Assembly: GCA_025963715.1 (NCBI GenBank)
Contig: JAOQAG010000017.1
Location: forward strand, 62,001 to 126,000
Direction of reading: 5' to 3'
Source: Bacteroidota bacterium
Lineage (GTDB): Bacteria; Bacteroidota; Bacteroidia; 2-12-FULL-35-15
DNA: 64,000 nucleotides
Both the position numbers and the translations under genes were made by a program. Positions 1 through 25,827 of this stretch are shown here, one piece after another (the first letter of the stretch is position 1; every line of letters begins with the position of its first letter). Under the pieces are notes generated by a model. That model ran no database searches and was not told the origin of the DNA. It worked only from the letters and a program-made list of their open reading frames with translations.

Positions 1-645
1 TCTACGCGATTTTATTATGCGTTAGAAGCAATTGAAAAATTGGAAAAAGCGAATGGATTAGGTGATATGATGCATCGTAGAATTATTGCATTTCTTAATG
101 CAGTCCTACTTGAGGATGCTAGAGAAAACATTAAAGACTTCAACGAATTCAATAATAATAACACGAATTTGTTTGATACAATTTTTGTTAAAAATTTGAA
201 AGCTGCTATTTCGAGTAATTATAATGAGCAATTAACTTTTTCCAAGTGGATGATTTCTTGCCCTATTTTTTTAAGCTATATAAATTTGTCTAATGATCTT
301 TCTAATTCACTTTTAGCTTTTTGTTCAAGTTTACAAGAAAATAGATTAACTAAAAATTCTATTTATGATTTGCTGAATATTGTAAAAGTGACTAAAGCTA
401 TAAGTAGTCGTGGGCCAAAGCCGGATGTAGTAGTGACAAAGAGCGCTTTTGATCCTATTATTCAATCTATGCAAGCGAATAATATGCCATTTGAATTATT
501 TAGAAAAAACCCTAGCAAAAAGGTTTCAAGAGAAAATAATAAAATCATAAAAGAATACATAAATAAGATGTTTAATGAGGTTTGGGATTCAAGTAAAATT
601 TGGAACTTAAGAAAGTACATTGAATCAAAGGATATAAAATGGTAG
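1..645 (+). CDS. 3' part of an unrecognised gene upstream of rdrB-like gene (possibly RdrA C-terminus)
   Basis: The reading frame is open from the first base of the window to a TAG at 643-645, so this is the C-terminal ~214 residues of a longer protein; a TTG at 40 is only an internal codon. The visible part looks helical and hydrophilic, with no catalytic motif I recognise and a basic tail (FRKNPSKKVSRENNK). It overlaps the next gene by 7 bases, which suggests translational coupling. Because RADAR systems place the ATPase gene rdrA directly before rdrB, this could be the end of RdrA, but that is inference from position only; no P-loop lies inside the window. Base composition is A+T-rich like the rest of the island. 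Confidence 0.6.
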   Translation, partial: STRFYYALEAIEKLEKANGLGDMMHRRIIAFLNAVLLEDARENIKDFNEFNNNNTNLFDTIFVKNLKAAISSNYNEQLTFSKWMISCPIFLSYINLSNDLSNSLLAFCSSLQENRLTKNSIYDLLNIVKVTKAISSRGPKPDVVVTKSAFDPIIQSMQANNMPFELFRKNPSKKVSRENNKIIKEYINKMFNEVWDSSKIWNLRKYIESKDIKW

Positions 646-3023
646 ATGATTCCACTTTTGTTCATTTGCTTTCAGATAATAAATCCTTGGCTTATTACTC
701 TGAGGGTAAAACTCCTACGCTGGAGAGGATTAAGAGCCACTTATTTTTGTTAGTAAGGTCACAAAAAACTGCAATTCCAGACCATTACTATTTATTAAAA
801 CAAGAAGAGGAATTTAAAGATATAAAGAGCATTAAGGATCTTCTGTTAGATGGTTTGTCAGTCCTTTCCAAAAAAAATCTTGATATTAAAGAAAATCAAA
901 TTTTTGTATATGAATCCGAATTTGGTAATTGGCAGAGACTGATAACTTTCATTCCCCCACTTATTTTACAAAGTGTCAAACTTCATAATCATGCTCCTAT
1001 TAACGACACTACAATAGCATCAATAAATAGCTATTGGCGAGAATATTTAAAGCCAAATTGTCTAAGAACTGCACTTCCATATCCTAATATAGCTCTTGTT
1101 GAAGATTTAATACAAGAAGGCCCGGGATTACGTGATTTACATATTCATTTGAATGGATCTGCTGAAACGGATATTGTTTGGCAAGATTTCTTAAGAAAGC
1201 CTAGCATGGTTTATAAGCATTTAAAGAAAGGCTTTTTAGATCCAAAAATTTTAGAACAATTTGAGCAAGAATCTCACTTATTAAATCCGCATAAATTTTA
1301 TAATCTGTTATTACTTGCTAGAAAAATTCGTCAATTGTTTTACAATTTAATTTTCGAAATTGATGATCAAGAAATCAAGATTAGTTCATTAGACGCTTTG
1401 TTGCAAAAGATCGTATTTACTTCACATTTTCAAGACGGCTATCAAAACTTTAAGCATCCTTTTCAAAAATTACTCCCTGAAGATAAAGATTTAGAAAAAG
1501 GAAACGATTTACCTGCAGAAGCTTTGATGTATGCTTTAGTATTAAGAGAACTAAAAAGGGATGATGCTGAAATTATCGCACCTTTATTTCATTTTTACTT
1601 ATTAATTAAAGGGTTATCAAACCGACTTCTTGTTCATCAGGTTCATCAATATGGTTTCGAACAGTTTCAAAGACATACTTCAAATACACTTCGAAATCAA
1701 AGCGAAATAACTTATCACCAGAGATTTTTTCAAATTCATGGAAATAAATTAAGGAATATTTCGCTTTTAGAAGGACGGTTCTCTCCCAAACAAAGTCATG
1801 TAGAAAATGTAGTGTTATTAAATGCAATTAATAAAGGTTGGGGTGTATTTGAAAAGAAAATTGCCGGAGAAGGAGGAAAACCGACTCTTAAATTAGTTGC
1901 TCATTTTATTAAAAAAAAGGAGGATGATAAAAGTGAATGGATTCGGCATCGGAATTTTAGAGTTGATTTGAATAAAAGGGCAAAAGTATTAACTATTCTG
2001 GTAAAGAGAAAGAAATGGAAAAGCCTAATTGTTGGTGTTGATGCTGCGGCTAATGAGTTAGATACTCCCCCAGAAGTTTTTGCCCCTGTTTTTAGAATGT
2101 TGCGTAAAAAAGAGGCATTTAGGCATTTTACTTATCATGTAGGAGAAGATTTTTTTCATATTATAAGTGGATTGAGAGCAATCTATGAGGCAATTGAGTT
2201 TGCCCACCTAGGAGAAAAGGATCGAATTGGACATGCAACTGCCGCTGGGATTAATAGTAAATTATGGCTGAAATCAATTGGCAAGAAAATGTTTATTAAA
2301 AAAGGCGAGTGGTTGGATAATTTGATCTTTACTAGACATTTGATTAATAAGCTGGATATTGATGAATTTAAACTGTCATTGGAAAAAATTGAAGGTCAAG
2401 CGAGAAAGTATTTTAAAGAAATTTATTCAAAGGATCTGGTTTTCGAAGATTATGAAAGTTCATGGCTTTATAGGAAGTATTGCCCTATTCTGGCGTTTAG
2501 CAATAATTATAATGAAGCGAGAATGAGCTCTGTTTTTAATTTTGAGGAATGGTATAACGTACAAGAGATAAAAACAAATATTGGTGCGTCTGAATTATTA
2601 AAGGTATATCATCTGAAAAGTATTAGAAATAGGTATAATGAAATAATTGAAATAAAAACGAATGAAATATTTGGCGCTAAGGCATTAACTATATTACAAT
2701 TAAAGCTACTTGAATTTATTGCTTCAAAAAGTATTGTAATAGAAACATTACCGACAAGCAACGTAAGAATAAGTCACTACAAAGACTATTCAGAATATCA
2801 TTTATTCGAATGGAAAAAATGGAAAGATATGAATAAAAAAATTCCAGACATTGTTGTGGGTTCGGATGATACAGGGATTTTTGCAACTAATATTTTTAAC
2901 GAGTATATTCACATTTATAGTCAGTTAGTTTCTGGGTCTAAGCAAATAACCTCTACTGAGGCGGTTAAGTATTTAAAAGAACTTAATGACAATGGTGGAG
3001 ATTTTCAATTCATAAACGAATGA
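639..3023 (+). CDS. rdrB: RdrB-like divergent adenosine deaminase (RADAR defence)
   Basis: A 794-residue protein with the scattered metal-site motifs of the adenosine deaminase superfamily: DLHIHLNG with H168 and H170, HVGEDF with H500 followed by RIGHATAAG, and VGSDDTGIFATNIFNEY with D743-D744. Ordinary adenosine deaminases are ~330-350 residues; here the first and second motifs are >300 residues apart, as expected for the large RdrB subunit that forms shells with the RdrA ATPase and deaminates adenosine nucleotides during phage infection. The assignment to RdrB rests on size, motifs and location next to McrBC, not on a search. ATG at 639 overlaps the preceding gene. All presumed metal ligands are present, so the enzyme is probably active. 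An alternative is another large ADA-like defence deaminase. Confidence 0.72.
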   Translation: MVDDSTFVHLLSDNKSLAYYSEGKTPTLERIKSHLFLLVRSQKTAIPDHYYLLKQEEEFKDIKSIKDLLLDGLSVLSKKNLDIKENQIFVYESEFGNWQRLITFIPPLILQSVKLHNHAPINDTTIASINSYWREYLKPNCLRTALPYPNIALVEDLIQEGPGLRDLHIHLNGSAETDIVWQDFLRKPSMVYKHLKKGFLDPKILEQFEQESHLLNPHKFYNLLLLARKIRQLFYNLIFEIDDQEIKISSLDALLQKIVFTSHFQDGYQNFKHPFQKLLPEDKDLEKGNDLPAEALMYALVLRELKRDDAEIIAPLFHFYLLIKGLSNRLLVHQVHQYGFEQFQRHTSNTLRNQSEITYHQRFFQIHGNKLRNISLLEGRFSPKQSHVENVVLLNAINKGWGVFEKKIAGEGGKPTLKLVAHFIKKKEDDKSEWIRHRNFRVDLNKRAKVLTILVKRKKWKSLIVGVDAAANELDTPPEVFAPVFRMLRKKEAFRHFTYHVGEDFFHIISGLRAIYEAIEFAHLGEKDRIGHATAAGINSKLWLKSIGKKMFIKKGEWLDNLIFTRHLINKLDIDEFKLSLEKIEGQARKYFKEIYSKDLVFEDYESSWLYRKYCPILAFSNNYNEARMSSVFNFEEWYNVQEIKTNIGASELLKVYHLKSIRNRYNEIIEIKTNEIFGAKALTILQLKLLEFIASKSIVIETLPTSNVRISHYKDYSEYHLFEWKKWKDMNKKIPDIVVGSDDTGIFATNIFNEYIHIYSQLVSGSKQITSTEAVKYLKELNDNGGDFQFINE

Positions 3024-3109
3024 GGATGTTAATTTATGATTTTTTTAATAATTCATTAAAAAATGAGTAAATTCATATTCATAATTACATAGATTAATTT
3101 AAGGAAATT

Positions 3110-5174
3110 ATGGACCAAATAAAAGGGACGACATATTAAAAGCGATTAGCGAAATTGACTCTAATCCTGAGCTAAAGAAAGGAAGAGCTTCAACTACTTA
3201 TGATTTAGCATACAACGGTAATTTATACCCACCCAAGCTAGTTATAAGTATTGCTAATCGTTATGCTACAGGTAAGAAACTGGGCCCCGATGAATTTGCC
3301 GGAGGTGAAAATACCCAAGCATTTAAGGTGCTCAAAAAATTTGACTTTGAAATAGTTAAAAAAATGAATAAAAATGATAAACATTTAGATTTTTTTCCAA
3401 TTATTCAAAAGTTTATTGTACAAGCAAAAACCGATAATTTGCAAAAAAAGGGGGGGCCTACAACATACTTGGATTTAGATTTCAAGGTTAGCTTTGGCAT
3501 TGGGAATTCTGCGAAAGTGCCTTGGATTACCTTCTTGAAAAGTCCTAATACTGTTAGCGATGGGATCTATCCAGTATATTTATACTATAAAGCTGAAAAT
3601 TTATTGATTTTGGCTTATGGTGTAAGTGAAACAGATACTCCGAATCATGTTTGGCCTGAACAGGCAAAATATGAAACGGTTAAGCATTGGTTTAAAAAAA
3701 TGAAAATCATGAGCCCGTTAGATACGGTTCTTCATTTGTTAAGTCGGTTTATCATTTGAATAATGAACTTGATCCAGAAATTATTCAAGAAGATTTGGAT
3801 GAGATCATTAATGAGTACTCAAAGATTGATTTTGGCCCTGAAAAAGAGGTGAATGAACCAAAAGTGGAGTACCAAGCAAAGCGCTATTGGTTGATAGCTC
3901 CAGGAGAAGGTGCTTATTTGTGAGATGAATTTTATTCTAAAGGAATAGTGGGGATCGGTTGGGCTAAGATTGGAGATTTGTCAAAATATTCTAATAGGGA
4001 AGAAGTTAGGGCTGATTTACTACACTTTTATCCTGATGGGAGTAAAAGTCAAAGTAATAATTCATTATGCTTGTGGCAATTTTCACATGAAATGAAAAGT
4101 GGTGATATTGTAATCGCGAAAAGAGGTACGAGTGAGTATGTTGGCTATGGAATAGTTACCAGTGGTTATTATAGGGATGAAGCAAGAGCCGATTCTAAGC
4201 ACTTGAGAAAAGTTGATTGGAAAAAGAGAGGAGCGTGGGAAGAAACGGTTATGGATAGGACGGTTATGAAGACTCTAACCGACATTACAAAATATCCGGA
4301 GTACGTAGATAGACTCAAACGAGTAATAGGCATTGAGCAGGCTGCCACTGTTGATGTTCAAAAAATAGAATATTACTGGTTAAATGCAAATCCTAAATAT
4401 TGGAAAATTGATGATTTTCAGGTGGGGGATGAGCAATCCTACACAACCCATAATGAAAAAGGAAATATTCAAAATAGCCTTGAGTATAAAAAGAATATAA
4501 TATTACAAGGACCTCCTGGCGTAGGAAAAACCTTTATGGCTAAACGGTTAGCTTATTTAGCGATGGAATCTAAGGATAGTACTAAAATTGAAATGATCCA
4601 ATTTCACCAAAGTTATTCGTACGAAGATTTTATTCAAGGATACAGGCCTAAAGATGATGGTGGTTTTCGTTTAGACAATGGAGTTTTTTATAGATTTTGT
4701 AGACGTGCCCAAGCTGACCCAGAGAACAAGTACTTCTTTATTATTGACGAAATTAATAGAGGGAATCTAAGTAAGATATTCGGTGAATTAATGCTTCTAA
4801 TCGAAGCAGATAAAAGAGGGGCTGAAAATGCTGTAGTCCTTACTTATTCGCAATCTAATGAAAACAAATTCTATATTCCCAATAACGTTTATATTATAGG
4901 AACAATGAATACCGCAGATCGCTCTTTGGCTTCTGTTGACTACGCTTTGAGAAGACGTTTTGCGTTTATTAACGTAGCCCCAAGTTTTAACGAAAAGTTT
5001 AAAAAAGAACTTTTAGATAAAGGTGTAGATGAAGGTATAATTGATCAAATAGTTCTAAAGATGGAAAGCTTAAACAGTGAAATTAGTAAGGATCTGAGTT
5101 TAGGCAAAGGCTTTAGGGTAGGACATAGTTATTTTTGTAATGTACCAAAAGGAACGGGCGATACATTATGGTAA
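3110..5174 (+). pseudogene. mcrB: decayed mcrB (GTPase subunit of McrBC restriction system)
   Basis: Three consecutive open pieces together spell one McrB-like protein. An N-terminal winged-helix-like part (from ATG 3110) is followed by a DUF3578/MrcB_N DNA-binding part (around 3430-3620, GNSAKVPWITFLKSP, GIYPVYLYYK), an EVE-like part (3880-4250, WLIAPGEGAYL..DEFYSKGIVGIGWAKIG) and an AAA+ GTPase (GPPGVGKT near 4510, FFIIDEINRGN near 4740, MNTADRS near 4905, RRRFAF). The gene is broken: a frameshift at the A-run 3121-3124, another near 3714-3716, an in-frame TGA at 3921-3923 where homologues have Trp, and a stop at 5172-5174 that removes the C-terminal ~40-60 residues. The two frameshifts sit in homopolymers and could be assembly errors; the TGA and C-terminal loss are harder to explain that way. 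Full-length McrB is not made as the sequence stands. Confidence 0.8.
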
Positions 5175-5179
5175 GCTAG

Positions 5180-6217
5180 TTGAAAATCCCTATTCAAAAT
5201 ATTTATTATCTGCTATGCTATGCATGGAATAAACTCGATGAAGGCGAAAGAGTGAATGTCTCTTCATCTGACTATGAGAATTCTATTGAGCTATATGCTC
5301 GTGTAATACTTAACGGTTGCAAACATTTGTTTAAAAAAGGGTTAGAATATAATTATGTTAATAGAACATATGAATATACAGGTGTTAAAGGGAAAATTGA
5401 TTTTAAAGCTTCATTGACCAAAAATTTATTTAAGCAAGGCAGAGCAATTTGTCAATTTGATGAATATGAGGTTGACATTTTACAAAATCAAATTCTAAAA
5501 GCGACTTTAAAGAGATTGCTTAAAACAAATTCTATTGACGTTAAATTAAAGAGAGAACTTTGGATATATTATTTAAAATTTTCACGTGTAGATGATTTAG
5601 ATGTGCAAATATTTCATTTTTCACAGGTTAGGATTCACAGAAATAATCAATTTTATGGATTTCTTTTATCAATATGTCAATTAATTATTGAAAACACTGC
5701 TTTAGATGAGGACTCAGGGACCTATCAGTTTAAAGACTTCATTGATAATGATAAAAAAATGGCTTCTTTATTTGAGAATTTTATTCGTAATTTTTATCGG
5801 AAAGAACAAGAAATATATCATGTAAGACGAGAAGATATTAGTTGGGACGCTTTTCCAATTGGCGATAGTAAGGGTTCGCTTCTTCCTAAAATGCAAACTG
5901 ATATTACGCTTGAATCCCAAAATCGAAAAATAATCATCGAAACAAAGTTCTATGGAAGTGCTTTAAATACAAGATTTGATACTGAAAAATATATTTCTAG
6001 CCATCTATACCAGTTATATTCATATTTACGGAATCTTGAAGCAAAAGAAGATCATTCTCAAAATATAAACACGGAGGGTATTCTCTTATATCCAACTGTT
6101 GGATATGATTTAAACGAGTCTTATTGGATGGGAACACATAAAATAACTGTTAAAACTATTAATCTAATGTCTGACTGGAAATCTATTCATGAGTCGCTCA
6201 TTGGAATTCTTAATTGA
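5180..6217 (+). CDS. mcrC: McrC-like endonuclease subunit of McrBC
   Basis: A 345-residue McrC family protein. The opening KIPIQNIYYLLCYAWNKLDE is the family's typical N-terminus, and the PD-(D/E)xK nuclease core is visible as D241 (TDITLES) with E254-T-K256 (IIIETKFYG). McrC associates with McrB GTPase hexamers and cuts DNA with modified cytosines. The start must be TTG at 5180, because an in-frame TAG lies immediately before it at 5177; family members normally begin ATG at this point. It follows the truncated mcrB by 5 bases. The reading frame itself is undamaged although its partner is broken, so it may be recently orphaned or depend on an McrB elsewhere. Confidence 0.85.
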   Translation: MKIPIQNIYYLLCYAWNKLDEGERVNVSSSDYENSIELYARVILNGCKHLFKKGLEYNYVNRTYEYTGVKGKIDFKASLTKNLFKQGRAICQFDEYEVDILQNQILKATLKRLLKTNSIDVKLKRELWIYYLKFSRVDDLDVQIFHFSQVRIHRNNQFYGFLLSICQLIIENTALDEDSGTYQFKDFIDNDKKMASLFENFIRNFYRKEQEIYHVRREDISWDAFPIGDSKGSLLPKMQTDITLESQNRKIIIETKFYGSALNTRFDTEKYISSHLYQLYSYLRNLEAKEDHSQNINTEGILLYPTVGYDLNESYWMGTHKITVKTINLMSDWKSIHESLIGILN

Positions 6218-6218
6218 T

Positions 6219-6344
6219 TTAATTTTTTAAGTTCTCTTGTATTTTTAAATTGTTTTTTTTGATGTCATATTTCGATTTTTCAATATAATATCCTAAAACT
6301 CCTAATACAATTACTGGAACTATCCAATCACTCTTTTTAGTTTG
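6219..6344 (-). pseudogene. headless fragment of a small membrane protein at the island edge
   Basis: On the minus strand 41 codons are open up to a TAA at 6219-6221. They encode a hydrophobic stretch (WIVPVIVLGVLGYY) followed by a Lys/Asn-rich tail (YDIKKNNLKIQENLKN). No ATG, GTG or TTG start lies in the frame, which is closed by a stop at 6345-6347, only 11 bases from the mnmE stop codon. It therefore looks like the C-terminus of a gene whose 5' part was lost at the junction with mnmE. This is a weak feature resting on composition and placement. Confidence 0.35.
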
Positions 6345-6357
6345 TTACACTGAAGAA

Positions 6358-7758
6358 CTACTTTCCGATACAAAACCTTGAAAAAATATTCGCCAGCAAA
6401 TCGTCACTCGAAATTTCTCCCGTGATTTCTCCGAGGTGATGTAATGCAGTACGAATATCCATCGCCAGAAAATCACCGGTAACATTCATATTCAATCCAT
6501 CCAGTACTTTTATTAATGCCACGTTGGTATGGCGCAACGCTTCCACATGGCGGGCGTTGGTAACAATGGTTTCGGTAACATTTACCGTACGGTTATCAAA
6601 TAAATGTACCAGGTGTTTCTTTAACAGATCAATGCCCTGGTTTTCCTTTGCAGAAACAAACAACATATCCTTAAACCCTTCAAACTCGCGATAGGTATAA
6701 GCCATATCCTCTTTGTCAATTTTATTGGCAACCAATATCAATTGCGAATTGTGCAAATGCGGTTGAATATCTTTTACGATCTGCGTTAATTCATTCGGCG
6801 TAATCTCATGCACATCAAATAAATAAATGGCAATGGACGAAAGTTTGATCTGCTCGTATGTTTTTTCTACACCGATCGATTCAATTATATCATTGGTTTC
6901 GCGGATTCCTGCTGTATCAATGATCCGGAACAACACGCCGTCAATGTTCAATTCATCTTCAATTACATCGCGCGTAGTGCCCGGTATGTCCGATACTATG
7001 GCGCGGTCTTCTTCCAGCAATACATTCAATAAGGTCGATTTTCCAGCGTTCGGTTTCCCGACGATGGCCACCGGGATCCCATTCTTAATTACATTTCCAA
7101 CTTCAAACGAATCGATCAAACGCTGCACGATCCGCTGAATGGTGCTCACTAAATTTTTGAGATCGCTCCTGTCCGCAAACTCCACATCCTCCTCCGCAAA
7201 ATCCAATTCGAGCTCAATTAAAGAAGCAAAGTCAATTAAATTCTGACGCAGGGTTTTGATCTGGTTGGAAAATCCGCCCCGCATCTGCTGCATCGCCACC
7301 TGGTGCGAAGTGGCCGAGTTCGACGAGATCAGATCGGCAACCGCTTCCGCCTGGCTCAGGTCCAGCTTTCCGTTTAAAAAAGCACGCAATGTAAATTCAC
7401 CCTGGTTAGCCATCCGCGCCCCCTTTTTCAAAAACAGCTGGATCACCTGCTGCTGAATAAAACCGGAACCGTGGCAGGAAATTTCTACTGTATTTTCACT
7501 GGTGTAGGAGTGGGGTGCTTTAAAAAGACTTACCAATACTTCATCCAGGATAATATCTTCATCGTGGATCACACCAAAATGTATGGTATGCGAATCCTTA
7601 TCGTTCAGTGTTTTCTTTTTTAGATTTTTAGTCGCAAAAACGCTTTCGCAGATGCTGATCGCTGCCGGTCCCGACAAACGGATCACGCCAATGGCGCCAA
7701 TCCCCTGCGGAGTGGCAAGGGCAACAATGGTATCGTTAGACAAGGTCTGCAGGTTCAC
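6358..7758 (-). CDS. mnmE: tRNA modification GTPase MnmE
   Basis: A 466-residue MnmE/TrmE. The N-terminal formyl-tetrahydrofolate-binding domain covers about residues 1-120. The G domain has G1 GKPNAGKST (234-242), G2/potassium loop DIPGTTRD (257-264), DTAG (281-284) and NKID (about 346-349). It ends with the conserved C-[IVL]-G-K motif carrying the catalytic Cys463. With MnmG it adds the (carboxymethyl)aminomethyl group to U34 of several tRNAs in the cytoplasm. Length is normal. Its 3' end faces the A+T-rich defence island; in other bacteria the last codons of this gene are an integrase target, and here they still encode an intact FCIGK end. Confidence 0.97.
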   Translation of the reverse strand: MNLQTLSNDTIVALATPQGIGAIGVIRLSGPAAISICESVFATKNLKKKTLNDKDSHTIHFGVIHDEDIILDEVLVSLFKAPHSYTSENTVEISCHGSGFIQQQVIQLFLKKGARMANQGEFTLRAFLNGKLDLSQAEAVADLISSNSATSHQVAMQQMRGGFSNQIKTLRQNLIDFASLIELELDFAEEDVEFADRSDLKNLVSTIQRIVQRLIDSFEVGNVIKNGIPVAIVGKPNAGKSTLLNVLLEEDRAIVSDIPGTTRDVIEDELNIDGVLFRIIDTAGIRETNDIIESIGVEKTYEQIKLSSIAIYLFDVHEITPNELTQIVKDIQPHLHNSQLILVANKIDKEDMAYTYREFEGFKDMLFVSAKENQGIDLLKKHLVHLFDNRTVNVTETIVTNARHVEALRHTNVALIKVLDGLNMNVTGDFLAMDIRTALHHLGEITGEISSDDLLANIFSRFCIGK

Positions 7759-7969
7759 GCGTAGAGATTTAAATGTTTTTAAGCGGTAAAAATCGGATCA
7801 AAAATAAGCAATTAAAGCGTACAGCCTATAAATCCTCAAAACAATGCAGTGGCACTGCTTTTTACCGCCTTTTTATGTTTTTTTTCAAAAAAAATATTAC
7901 TGTTGCAGGCCTGTGAATAACCTTGTGGAAAAACGAGTGTAATTTAGTTTTTCTCTTAGTAAAATGTAC

Positions 7970-7977
7970 TACGTTTG
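7970..7977 (+). promoter_or_regulatory. Bacteroidota-type -7 box (TACGTTTG)
   Basis: TACGTTTG fits the TAnnTTTG -7 consensus of the Bacteroidota primary sigma factor and lies 36 bases before the ATG at 8014. No clear TTTG -33 box is seen. Confidence 0.5.
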
Positions 7978-8013
7978 CAGCAATCTACAACACAAACCAA
8001 TCAAAAAAAATCG

Positions 8014-9765
8014 ATGAAAAAAATTATTACTCTCTTCTTATTGTTATTGTTAGCAGCTACGGGTACTGTATTCTCACAGGCGGGCCCCGAGATCCTGCAT
8101 TATCGTTTCGACAGTACGGGTACAACTGTACGCAACCTGGCAAGTGCGCCACCTGCTGGTGCAAGCACTGCAAACATAATGGGCGGCATCACGCAAGGCG
8201 CTGCCGGGCAATGCGGCGGTGCTTTGATCGGTTCCGGTAATTCATCCAGCACCGATTACCTTAATACCGGTTTTACTACCAATCTTTCGGGCCCCTGGAC
8301 CATTTCCGTGTGGACCTCCAACATTACTGCTTCCGCCACCTTATTTTACATTTTCGGTGATCTCAATGCCGGTTCTTTCCGTTGTTTTACAAATGGTGTT
8401 GCCGGGGCTAACAACTGGATCCTGCGCGGTCCTTTTACAGATGTGTATGTAAATGGCGGTGCTACAGTAGCTCCTCACATCACTACTTTTGTGTATGATG
8501 ATGTTGCCGGAAATATTTATGGGTATCTTGATGGCGTGCTGGTAGCTACCGTACCGCAAACTCCTATCACAATTACCGGTCCCGGCCCTTTTAAAGTAAT
8601 GGGTTACTCTGCCAATGTAGGGTCGCCTGCCGGTGGATTGCTGGATGAGTTCCGCATGTACAGCCGTGCATTAACTGCAGCTGAAGTCGCGGATCTTCAC
8701 TTTACAACCCATACCAGCGCTTCACTTACGGCCTGCGATACCTATACCGATAACCGCGGACGGATGTTTAATGTTGCCGGTACGTATGTTGATACAGTGA
8801 CATCGTCACTCGGTTGCGATAGCCTTGTGGACCTAACACTTACGCTCCACAACAGCTCCGCAGGAAGTGTTACCACCACCGAATGTGATTCGTATACAGC
8901 TGCCGACGGTGCAGTGTATACCACTTCCGGAACGTACAGCGCTGTTGTTCCCAATGCAGTTGGATGCGATAGCACGATCAGCATCAACCTTACAGTTATA
9001 AATTCTTCAGGCAGCACCATCAGCCCGGTAACCTGTAACAGTTATACGGCTGTGGATGGTACCACCTATACTACTTCTGGTGCATACAGCGCCATTGTGG
9101 CCAATGCAGCCGGTTGCGACAGTATTATTACCATTAATTTAACTATTAATACTCCTTCCTCCAGCACCATTTCTGCTACCGGGTGCGGTGGAAGCTACAC
9201 GGCCCCGGACGGAGCTGTATACATATCTTCCGGCACCGAAACAGCTATCATTCCTAATTATACCGGTTGCGACAGTACCATTACCATCAATTTAACCATC
9301 ATCTCGGTAGATACTTCGGTAACCGTAAACCTGCCGGTAATCACTGCCAATGAAGCAGGAGCTACTTATCAGTGGATTGATTGCGGAACCAGCCTGCCGA
9401 TAGCAGGAGAAACCAACCAAAGCTTTACAGCGGCAGCAAACGGCGATTACGCTGTAGTGGTAACCATGGGAACCTGCTCCGGTACCAGTATCTGCGTAAG
9501 TGTTATGAATACAGGCGTAGCACAGGCTGCAGCCGATAACATTGTAAACATTTATCCAAATCCAACCAATGGTAGTTTTAGCATCCAAACGGGCGCTGTT
9601 GCGAATCTGCTGGTTGTGACCGATTTACTGGGTAGAACCGTTACACAGATCAAACCGGTAACGACACGCACAGTGATAGATCTGACAGGCGAAAAGAATG
9701 GTGTTTATTTTGTAAAGATCATTACTGAAAAAGGAACAAAAACAATGAAAATAGTGAAACAATAA
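8014..9765 (+). CDS. secreted LamG-domain protein with Cys repeats and T9SS sorting domain
   Basis: A 583-residue exported surface protein. Residues 1-21 are a signal peptide (MKKIITLFLLLLLAATGTVFS); the ATG at 8014 is chosen because the upstream in-frame start at 7975 would overlap the -7 box and bury the signal peptide. Residues ~25-215 resemble a LamG/concanavalin-like jelly roll. Then come four ~50-residue repeats of the form C-x-SYT-x2-DG-x2-YTTSG ... GCDS-x-I-x-INLT. The last ~70 residues (NIYPNPTNGSFSI ... KNGVYFVKI ... KTMKIVKQ) are a type A T9SS C-terminal sorting domain, which directs export and surface attachment in this phylum. Ligand unknown. A terminator hairpin follows. Confidence 0.85.
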   Translation: MKKIITLFLLLLLAATGTVFSQAGPEILHYRFDSTGTTVRNLASAPPAGASTANIMGGITQGAAGQCGGALIGSGNSSSTDYLNTGFTTNLSGPWTISVWTSNITASATLFYIFGDLNAGSFRCFTNGVAGANNWILRGPFTDVYVNGGATVAPHITTFVYDDVAGNIYGYLDGVLVATVPQTPITITGPGPFKVMGYSANVGSPAGGLLDEFRMYSRALTAAEVADLHFTTHTSASLTACDTYTDNRGRMFNVAGTYVDTVTSSLGCDSLVDLTLTLHNSSAGSVTTTECDSYTAADGAVYTTSGTYSAVVPNAVGCDSTISINLTVINSSGSTISPVTCNSYTAVDGTTYTTSGAYSAIVANAAGCDSIITINLTINTPSSSTISATGCGGSYTAPDGAVYISSGTETAIIPNYTGCDSTITINLTIISVDTSVTVNLPVITANEAGATYQWIDCGTSLPIAGETNQSFTAAANGDYAVVVTMGTCSGTSICVSVMNTGVAQAAADNIVNIYPNPTNGSFSIQTGAVANLLVVTDLLGRTVTQIKPVTTRTVIDLTGEKNGVYFVKIITEKGTKTMKIVKQ

Positions 9766-24626: not shown

Positions 24627-25319
24627 CTAATTACTCTCTTTATAGTGATATTCTTTCAGCAACAATCCAATATCCTTGATCAGCTGCTCCACATCCGTTG
24701 AATCCGTACCGTCGTAATAACCACGGATCCGTTTGTCCTTATCGATCAGTGCAAAATTTTGTGTATGAATAAAATCATCCGGGCCACCGTTGCCCTGCTG
24801 TGCATCCAGGAAATAACCCGAACGTGCCACTTCATACAATTGTTTTTTATCACCGGTCACAAACATCCATTGTTTGCTGTCGGCATTATGCTTTTGCGCG
24901 TATGCTTTTAAAAGCGGTACCGAATCCACTTCCGGGTCAACGGTATGCGACAGGAATTTTACTTCCGGATTTCCTTTGTATGTATCATAAATATGTTCCA
25001 TTTTGGTGCTCATCACCGGGCAAATGCTGTGGCAGGTGGTAAAAAAGAAATCCGTTACATATATGCTTCCTTCCAGGTCCTTTTGTGTGATCGTTTTCCC
25101 GTCCTGGTCAATAAAGCTAAAATCCTGCACCGTGTGATAGGTCGTGTCTGTTTTTCCTTTATTTGCTTCGTACGACATCGGCCCGAAGATCGCCAGGTAG
25201 CGGATCGGTTTTTTATTGTCATGAATAAAAAAGGCATAAGTTAAAAATCCCGCTGCGATAACTAACAGCGATAAATTGATGAGCGTTGTTCTGCTTTTTT
25301 TGTTGGAAGGTGTAAGCAT
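24627..25319 (-). CDS. SCO1/SenC family copper-binding protein
   Basis: A 230-residue protein starting at the ATG at 25319. A longer frame to 25406 would overlap the upstream tlpA-like gene and delay the membrane anchor. A single N-terminal membrane segment lies at about 12-31. The thioredoxin-fold domain carries the copper site C96-x3-C100 (FFTTCHSICP) and H185 (DDFIHTQNF). SCO proteins deliver copper to, or reduce, the CuA site of cytochrome oxidase on the outer face of the inner membrane. It lies 22 bases after the TlpA-like gene, so the two are likely co-transcribed. Confidence 0.92.
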   Translation of the reverse strand: MLTPSNKKSRTTLINLSLLVIAAGFLTYAFFIHDNKKPIRYLAIFGPMSYEANKGKTDTTYHTVQDFSFIDQDGKTITQKDLEGSIYVTDFFFTTCHSICPVMSTKMEHIYDTYKGNPEVKFLSHTVDPEVDSVPLLKAYAQKHNADSKQWMFVTGDKKQLYEVARSGYFLDAQQGNGGPDDFIHTQNFALIDKDKRIRGYYDGTDSTDVEQLIKDIGLLLKEYHYKESN

Positions 25320-25341
25320 CTTGATTTTATTTTTGCATCTG

Positions 25342-25827
25342 TTACGGCATTTGCTCCACCGTGCTGATCTCTTTTTGAAGAACAGCATACGTGAGCTTTT
25401 GCTCATAAAAATTCCGGTATTTCTTTTTGTTATTTACGATCAGTGTAGCGGGTATGGAGCCCGTCCATTTATCCGAAACTTTTGGAATAAAATAATTTCC
25501 GTTGGTTTCGTCCAGTAAAAAAACGTCGGAGCGGATGTGCTTTTTTGCAACAAAAGGAAGCACTTTTTCATCGCGGTCTTCTTTAAAATCCAGCGTGATC
25601 AGTAATACTTTTACTTTTTGCGTGCCGTATACTTTTGTAATGCTGTCAAAATCCGGTAATTCCTTTACGCAGGGCGCACACCAGGTAGCCCAAAAATTAA
25701 CGATATAGGTGGTGTCCGAATTATTATTCAGCCGCCGTTCCAGATCTTTGATCTTTATAACACTTATATTCTGCGAAAACACAAAGGATACAGAAAACGC
25801 AAACAGCAATGCAAAACAGTACTTCAT
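25342..25827 (-). CDS. TlpA-like periplasmic thioredoxin
   Basis: A 161-residue protein starting at the ATG at 25827, which gives a proper signal peptide (MKYCFALLFAFSVSFVFSQ). The thioredoxin domain has the active site WATWCAPC (C50, C53), FDSITKVYG, and the cis-Pro region GSIPATLIVNN. It would keep periplasmic thiols reduced, a role compatible with supporting the SCO copper protein directly downstream. The upstream in-frame ATG at 25854 lies in an 'attacgaattacgaatgg' repeat and is not preferred. Confidence 0.88.
   Translation of the reverse strand: MKYCFALLFAFSVSFVFSQNISVIKIKDLERRLNNNSDTTYIVNFWATWCAPCVKELPDFDSITKVYGTQKVKVLLITLDFKEDRDEKVLPFVAKKHIRSDVFLLDETNGNYFIPKVSDKWTGSIPATLIVNNKKKYRNFYEQKLTYAVLQKEISTVEQMP

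Follow-up and report, generated by a model that had tools for sequence, protein, structure and literature searches.

The mnmE joint and the defence genes beside it

The analysed window was a stretch of 64,000 nucleotides (C7:62001-126000) from a genome of 4.91 Mb in 51 contigs. Positions 1-6357 formed the right-hand end of an A+T-rich defence island that covered 42.7 kb in total (C7:25691-68357). Namely, the window opened with the 3' part of rdrA (1-645, plus strand; an 897-aa ORF starting at C7:59952), followed by rdrB (639-3023, plus strand) encoding the RADAR adenosine deaminase-like subunit, a separate ORF with a match to the MrcB_N domain (3328-3759, plus strand), a gene for a McrB-like AAA_5 GTPase/ATPase whose N-terminal part resembled PADLOC PDC-S02 (3948-5174, plus strand), and an mcrC-like gene with a PF10117 match (5180-6217, plus strand). 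The MrcB_N ORF and the McrB-like AAA gene were in different frames and 188 bases apart. A spacer of 140 bp (6218-6357) separated the mcrC-like gene from mnmE (6358-7758, minus strand), a host gene with Pfam matches to TrmE_N and MnmE_helical, and the 3' end of mnmE was the presumed attachment site. As the preliminary description of this DNA had read it, the protein ended in FCIGK-stop (in full, FSRFCIGK-stop), with the final codons TTT TGT ATC GGA AAG TAG. These 18 bp (6358-6375, minus strand; C7:68358-68375) made up the mnmE-side copy of an att-like repeat with an exact 13-bp core at 6361-6373.

The spacer held an open frame of 41 codons on the minus strand (6222-6344), with a stop at 6219-6221, an in-frame TAA at 6345-6347 and no ATG, GTG or TTG within it. 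It had been taken for the tail of a truncated membrane-protein gene and a scar of integration. The frame was indeed present, but 778 of 3000 simulated spacers (26%; first-order Markov, 140 bp) contained one of equal or greater length, and no convincing homologue was found in 395 genomes. The best matches, with E about 0.001 per genome, fell in membrane segments of full-length proteins that seemed unrelated. Thus, the frame was no longer than expected by chance and a truncated gene at the joint was not supported.

The far edge of the island

A second copy of the mnmE end, which the preliminary description had predicted for the other side of the block, was found outside the window at C7:25673-25690. 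It was a direct copy, identical to the mnmE-end 18-mer at 15 of 18 positions, 13 of them consecutive. Namely, the 13-mer CTTTCCGATACAA (window 6361-6373), whose reverse complement TTGTATCGGAAAG forms the final coding bases of mnmE, had an identical copy, equally oriented, at C7:25676-25688. Judged by eye, the far copy started 15 bases past the stop of a chromosomal beta-barrel gene of 785 aa. Its stop position read CAA, one transition from TAA, and its position 2 was G, as in the far copies of three relatives (G018, G026, G035) and in a matching end from G021. Position 2 may therefore come from the element, in which case the far copy would, on its chromosomal side, be one mutation away from a normal mnmE end.

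A repeat of this kind could be coincidental if the block had grown by accretion and homologous exchange beside mnmE, without att recombination. The three mismatches in 18 were compatible with coincidence, as was the recurrence on the contig of other 13-mers from around the mnmE end, mostly A+T-rich ones. However, CTTTCCGATACAA differed from those in covering the last codons and in its orientation and place, and the 15/18 match was unique at that quality in C7:1-68357, where it had no inverted counterpart. In 300 shuffles of the 18-mer, matches of this quality arose 0.05 times per 68 kb, and the chance of one in the kilobase around the left composition breakpoint was 0.0003, a rough value from one hit in 3000 shuffles. 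The place, orientation and core of the repeat thus spoke against coincidence, as did these chances.

Base composition was segmented by a two-breakpoint likelihood over C7:1-126000 that made no use of the repeats. The resulting segments had GC contents of 0.406 (left), 0.328 (block) and 0.415 (right). The right breakpoint, C7:68390 (68290-68530 within 3 lnL), corresponded to window position 6390 and was within 30 bp of the repeat. In the window, GC content per kilobase was 0.296-0.360 over positions 1-6000 against 0.444-0.493 over 7001-9000, so the A+T-rich RADAR/McrBC block did stop at the end of mnmE, as had been claimed from the sequence. The left breakpoint, C7:25190 (25030-25430 within 3 lnL), was about 490 bp outside the repeat, and the far repeat fell outside that 3-lnL range. 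The block therefore had a direct repeat of the target end at both borders, the far copy being degenerate, and a composition unlike that of its flanks.

Two other features were seen near this edge. A GC-rich inverted repeat, GTCATCCCGC...GCGGGATGACAG, was located at C7:25750-25880, within the island and close to its far end. To the left of the island, at C7:18397-21480 and in neighbouring genes, there was a further type I restriction-type gene set with host-like GC content.

Cargo and recombinases

Among 28 ORFs of at least 70 aa counted in the island, 23 were scanned, 21 of them against Pfam and two more against PADLOC only. The cargo included a type I restriction-modification system (an N6-methylase/specificity fusion and a ResIII/EcoEI_R_C subunit), a T5orf172 protein corresponding to PADLOC PDC-S57, AbiEi and AbiEii, a nucleotidyltransferase-HEPN protein, and a cluster with best PADLOC matches to mad5, mad6, mad7 and mad8, accompanied by a methylase and a PP2C phosphatase. 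The methylase of this mad-like cluster matched a type II methylase best, with mad2 also significant. The RdrA/RdrB and McrBC-like genes also lay between the repeats. With the type I system, PDC-S57, AbiEi/AbiEii, the mad5-8-like cluster, RdrA/RdrB and the McrBC-like genes, the block was a defence island of 42.7 kb that contained several systems and had att-like repeats on both sides. One of its proteins (925 aa, L010:13204-15981) combined N6-methylase, type I specificity and histidine-kinase-type ATPase (HATPase) matches. Its 291-aa partner (L010:15974-16849; the pair at C7:33204-36849) looked receiver-like by eye and had no match in Pfam or PHROGs.

A PF00589 profile search of the genome gave matches at three places, C1, C22 and C8 (239 aa), and no tyrosine integrase on C7. 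The C1 and C22 proteins were Xer-like by size and tree position. No serine recombinase was detected in the genome (PF00239, E 0.001), and tblastn with the integrases of relatives recovered no remnant in C7:1-70000, the best match having E 0.096. Since its contig carried no integrase and the genome no serine recombinase, the island appeared to be integrase-less at present. Thus, the suggested search of the left flank yielded the attachment repeat, but no integrase was found there or elsewhere on C7.

Ends of mnmE in relatives

DNA downstream of mnmE was sampled from 36 relatives, of which 33 belonged to the genus and three to other families (downstream DNA was lacking for G024 and G030, and mnmE was not matched in G007 and G008). 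The 18-mer pattern TTYTGTATYGGNAARTRR was searched in 481,304 bases from 37 loci, including the source genome. Four exact and three one-mismatch copies were direct, and neither the inverted orientation nor two reversed-pattern controls gave any in either class. At two mismatches there were seven direct hits, the far copy of the window's island among them, against nine inverted ones and four and zero in the controls, so that such hits carried little weight alone. Because of this, and of its three mismatches, the far repeat by itself was modest evidence.

Second direct copies were present in seven relatives, at distances from mnmE of 12.1 kb (G016), 6.7 kb (G015), 6.5 kb (G027), 2.6 kb (G013), 2.1 kb (G026), 1.9 kb (G035) and 1.8 kb (G018). 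A second sample of 78 named Bacteroidota loci (684,375 bases), picked by MnmE similarity and searched with a slightly looser pattern, overlapped the relatives' genomes in at least one case and, judging by end sequences, in several. It contained five exact direct copies (L061, L092, L118 and two in L106) and three with one mismatch, compared with no exact and one one-mismatch inverted copy, and zero and one, and zero and zero, in the controls. Upstream of mnmE, in 672,859 bases from 74 of the 78 loci, there were no exact copies and one one-mismatch copy in each orientation. In L106 (Flavobacteriaceae bacterium PRS1), the two additional exact-pattern copies were 1.8 and 5.2 kb downstream of mnmE, with ordinary-looking genes between.

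Positive signs of occupation were observed at 12 of the 32 genus loci with downstream DNA, a lower bound for the number occupied: an integrase in G006, G015, G025, G027 and G032, an end sequence in G021, and a repeat in G000, G013, G016, G018, G026 and G035. The proteins of the window's island were nearly absent at mnmE in the relatives, with two weak matches. Thus, the island genes were not shared at this place by all relatives, and the mnmE end was repeated at the other side of the block; neither of these results went against the early reading of the site.

No empty site for the window's island was found through its flanking beta-barrel gene in these draft assemblies, where the gene was matched in four of 35 other genus genomes and never on the contig of mnmE. 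A left-flank DUF4268 gene (153 aa) had a 68.6% identical match 10.5 kb after mnmE in G029. No other left-flank protein matched at that locus, and we therefore drew no inference from it.

Integrases next to mnmE

Six mnmE-adjacent integrases were used as tblastn queries (E 1e-5) against 113 loci. They matched at 24 places, each in a different locus, and every match started 86-1901 nt past mnmE on its strand; these included a broken copy (G013), a fragment (L115), a Xer-like protein (L107) and a genome that entered the count twice (L047 = G025). No integrase was found upstream of mnmE in 673 kb from 74 loci. Since the queries themselves were taken from the mnmE-adjacent position, this absence elsewhere was the informative part. 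In a tree of 41 rows, 19 of the 20 mnmE-adjacent rows formed one clade (98/92). L107 grouped with Xer proteins, and the 21 other rows were outside the clade, four of them next to it (L100, G013, L115, L047 and a second weak match of L186 were left out, and the C8 protein of the source genome did not match the profile used here). The integrase of G027 had Arm-DNA-bind_5, Phage_int_SAM_5 and Phage_integrase domains. tRNAs were present in three of the 12 loci scanned.

Growth of the block by accretion was in keeping with the lack of an integrase on C7 and of an empty site for this island, but other elements had integrated at the same codons in relatives. Taking this together with the place of the repeat, we consider accretion with a coincidental repeat improbable.

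By profile (E 0.1), integrases were present in the elements of G015, G027 and L061 and in pieces in G013, whereas none was found in the elements of G000, G016, G018, G026, G035, L092, L106 and L118. The element of G013 looked like a deletion derivative of the G015/G027 type since its mnmE-side end was common to both and it kept pieces of their integrase. These pieces were about 90-540 nt after mnmE (L146), as if the element had been caught while losing its integrase.

The window's island might similarly have carried an integrase of its own beside mnmE, and a deletion that removed it might have left the 140-bp spacer. The integrases of relatives were at the mnmE side, where the window's island had none and G013 retained a broken copy, and this was as expected from such a loss. 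On the other hand, C7:1-70000 contained no remnant, the open frame in the spacer was within chance, and several other elements at the site were without an integrase while their ends were clean and conserved. We regard loss of a resident integrase as a serious possibility, although one that falls short of an even chance.

Integrase-less cassettes

Some of the integrase-less elements in relatives were cassettes of 1.3-2.1 kb, each with a single defence or toxin-antitoxin-like system. The cargo of G035 and G018 was one AAA/DUF4143 gene (91% identical between them; that of G035 was the PADLOC candidate PDC-S01), that of L118 was a Fic protein (PADLOC SoFic), and that of G026 was HipBA, assigned by eye and by likeness to the HipA of G016. 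A larger element of 12.1 kb in G016 encoded two Schlafen-type helicases and NA37 and HipA-like proteins.

The ends of these cassettes were conserved. The mnmE-side end of G035 matched those of G026, G021 and G018, and its far end matched those of G018 and G026 despite the different cargo of G026; G021 had a far end like that of G035 on another contig. Moreover, a 171-aa gene past the far repeat of the G035 cassette directly followed mnmE in G017 (73% identical) and G003 (86% identical), and four genes past the far repeat of G018 directly followed mnmE in G002, with 88-97% identity. Thus, the G035 and G018 cassettes have empty-site counterparts. In G026, the DNA past the far repeat resembled the mnmE-side end of the integrase-bearing elements of G032 (92/110 aligned bases) and G006 (88/110).

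Such cassettes suggested another origin for the window's island, namely that it never had an integrase of its own and that one of the same specificity was supplied by another element, acting in trans or, through tandem accretion, in cis. The conserved ends of the integrase-less cassettes and their two empty sites pointed in this direction, as did the G026 cassette, which was followed in tandem by an end resembling those of integrase-bearing elements. However, the ends of the window's island had no clear likeness to integrase-bearing elements. Their best match to other mnmE elements was 25 nt long (E 0.001), and a motif common near the integrases of the clade, TTATTTGTTG, had a single occurrence close to the island's far end and none at its mnmE end. 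Movement by a foreign integrase is therefore a tentative reading, which we would not call probable.

Phage-like elements at the same site

In a tblastn search of phage records, 431 records matched at E 1e-5 and two were examined; a further 80 loci came from scanned viral contigs. Of these 82, the 48 with better or fuller matches were scanned for the 18-mer. It was present, with at most one mismatch, in 18 of the 48, always on the strand of the integrase, and it lay 167-278 bp before the integrase in 17 cases and 845 bp before it in one. One pair was especially informative. L227 and L226 were 98.7% identical over 6358 bp, and the match started exactly at the 18-mer; to the left of it, L227 encoded the C-terminus of MnmE ending in FCIGK-stop and L226 did not. 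The PHROGs matches of L226 included tail proteins, a reverse transcriptase, an integrase, a helicase and a primase/helicase. Accordingly, L226 and L227 are the unintegrated and integrated forms of one phage-like element and part exactly at the 18-mer, so a phage-like element uses the mnmE site in Bacteroidota. In L226, the reverse transcriptase was near large tail genes, possibly as part of a diversity-generating retroelement, and the 18-mer was attP-like.

Origin of the island

We think it quite probable that the A+T-rich block is a 42.7-kb defence island that was inserted at the mnmE 3' end through site-specific recombination and now lacks an integrase. A tyrosine integrase of the Bacteroidota clade, targeting the FCIGK-stop codons, would have joined the attP core to attB in mnmE. 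The frame of mnmE would have been kept and the second copy of the gene end left at the far edge. The island would then either have lost its own integrase or have been moved by that of a phage or small mobile element using the same site. Integration was made credible by the relatives, with their seven second copies, integrases of one clade, two empty sites and the L226/L227 pair; with good probability, the island in the window is thus an insertion at the mnmE end. As for its present state, the best reading is an integrase-less island that is decayed or dependent on other elements.

The early proposal of an integration site at mnmE was in this way upheld by the far repeat and by the repeats, integrases, empty sites and phage pair of relatives, except for the supposed gene scar and for the SGI1-type element as such. 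The latter was not supported: no integrase was found on C7, and none of the SGI1 backbone genes (intGI, xis, tra, mps) was seen among the 23 island ORFs in a general Pfam and/or PADLOC scan.

More broadly, the mnmE end of Bacteroidota may be a shared dock. One old clade of tyrosine integrases would serve it on phages and small mobile elements, integrase-less defence cassettes (HipBA, an AAA-DUF4143 candidate system, SoFic-like Fic) would be enabled by their ends to move with the integrases of others, and the 43-kb island would be a large passenger. We rate this wider model at only slightly less than an even chance.

Relation to known elements

The choice of target had a precedent. In Gammaproteobacteria, the trmE/mnmE 3' end is a hotspot for SGI1-related elements with 18-bp att sites and tandem arrays (PMC9035990), which bears out the remark that this gene end is an SGI1-type target in proteobacteria. 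The Bacteroidota case shared with these elements the target, the 18-bp att repeat, tandem arrays and restriction genes in the cargo. It differed in phylum and in that neither an integrase nor an SGI1 backbone gene was seen in the window's island, and the Bacteroidota mnmE integrases were Arm-DNA-bind_5/Phage_int_SAM_5 proteins.

A defence island of about 30 kb in trmE of Shewanella, MGItrmE, encodes an excisionase and a MobI-like protein and excises (PMC12016545). The window's island similarly carried defence systems, over 43 kb rather than about 30 kb, but neither an excisionase nor a MobI-like protein was found in it. Elements that keep attL and attR after losing their integration and transfer genes are termed CIMEs (PMC5704250). 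The window's island resembled these in having att-like repeats on both sides and no recognised integrase, with tandem accretion in a relative; unlike a CIME so defined, it had one degenerate repeat and no known integrase-bearing ancestor. A review (PMC11389934) describes helper-dependent 'hitcher' elements, including CALINs and MITEs. The integrase-less cassettes of relatives, with their conserved ends, would likewise need the recombinase of another element, but their target was one chromosomal gene end and not attC sites or transposon ends as described there for CALINs and MITEs. The literature searched, which covered few subscription journals and is thus weak evidence of absence, gave no report of mnmE islands in Bacteroidota. 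In our view, the integrase-less defence cassettes were the more novel part of these results.

The same few codons of mnmE thus serve a second phylum, which has its own integrase clade for them along with a phage, small elements and cargo of defence genes. If the cassettes do ride on the integrases of others, the spread of single defence systems, and likewise the growth of defence islands at a single place, would have a concrete, testable route. The 18-mer can be used by annotators as a marker to find such cassettes. The start of a further HipBA cassette with the same mnmE-type end was seen at L176:1486-3085 (G035:C26), on a contig other than that of mnmE, and it perhaps marks either an additional mnmE-end copy or a secondary site.
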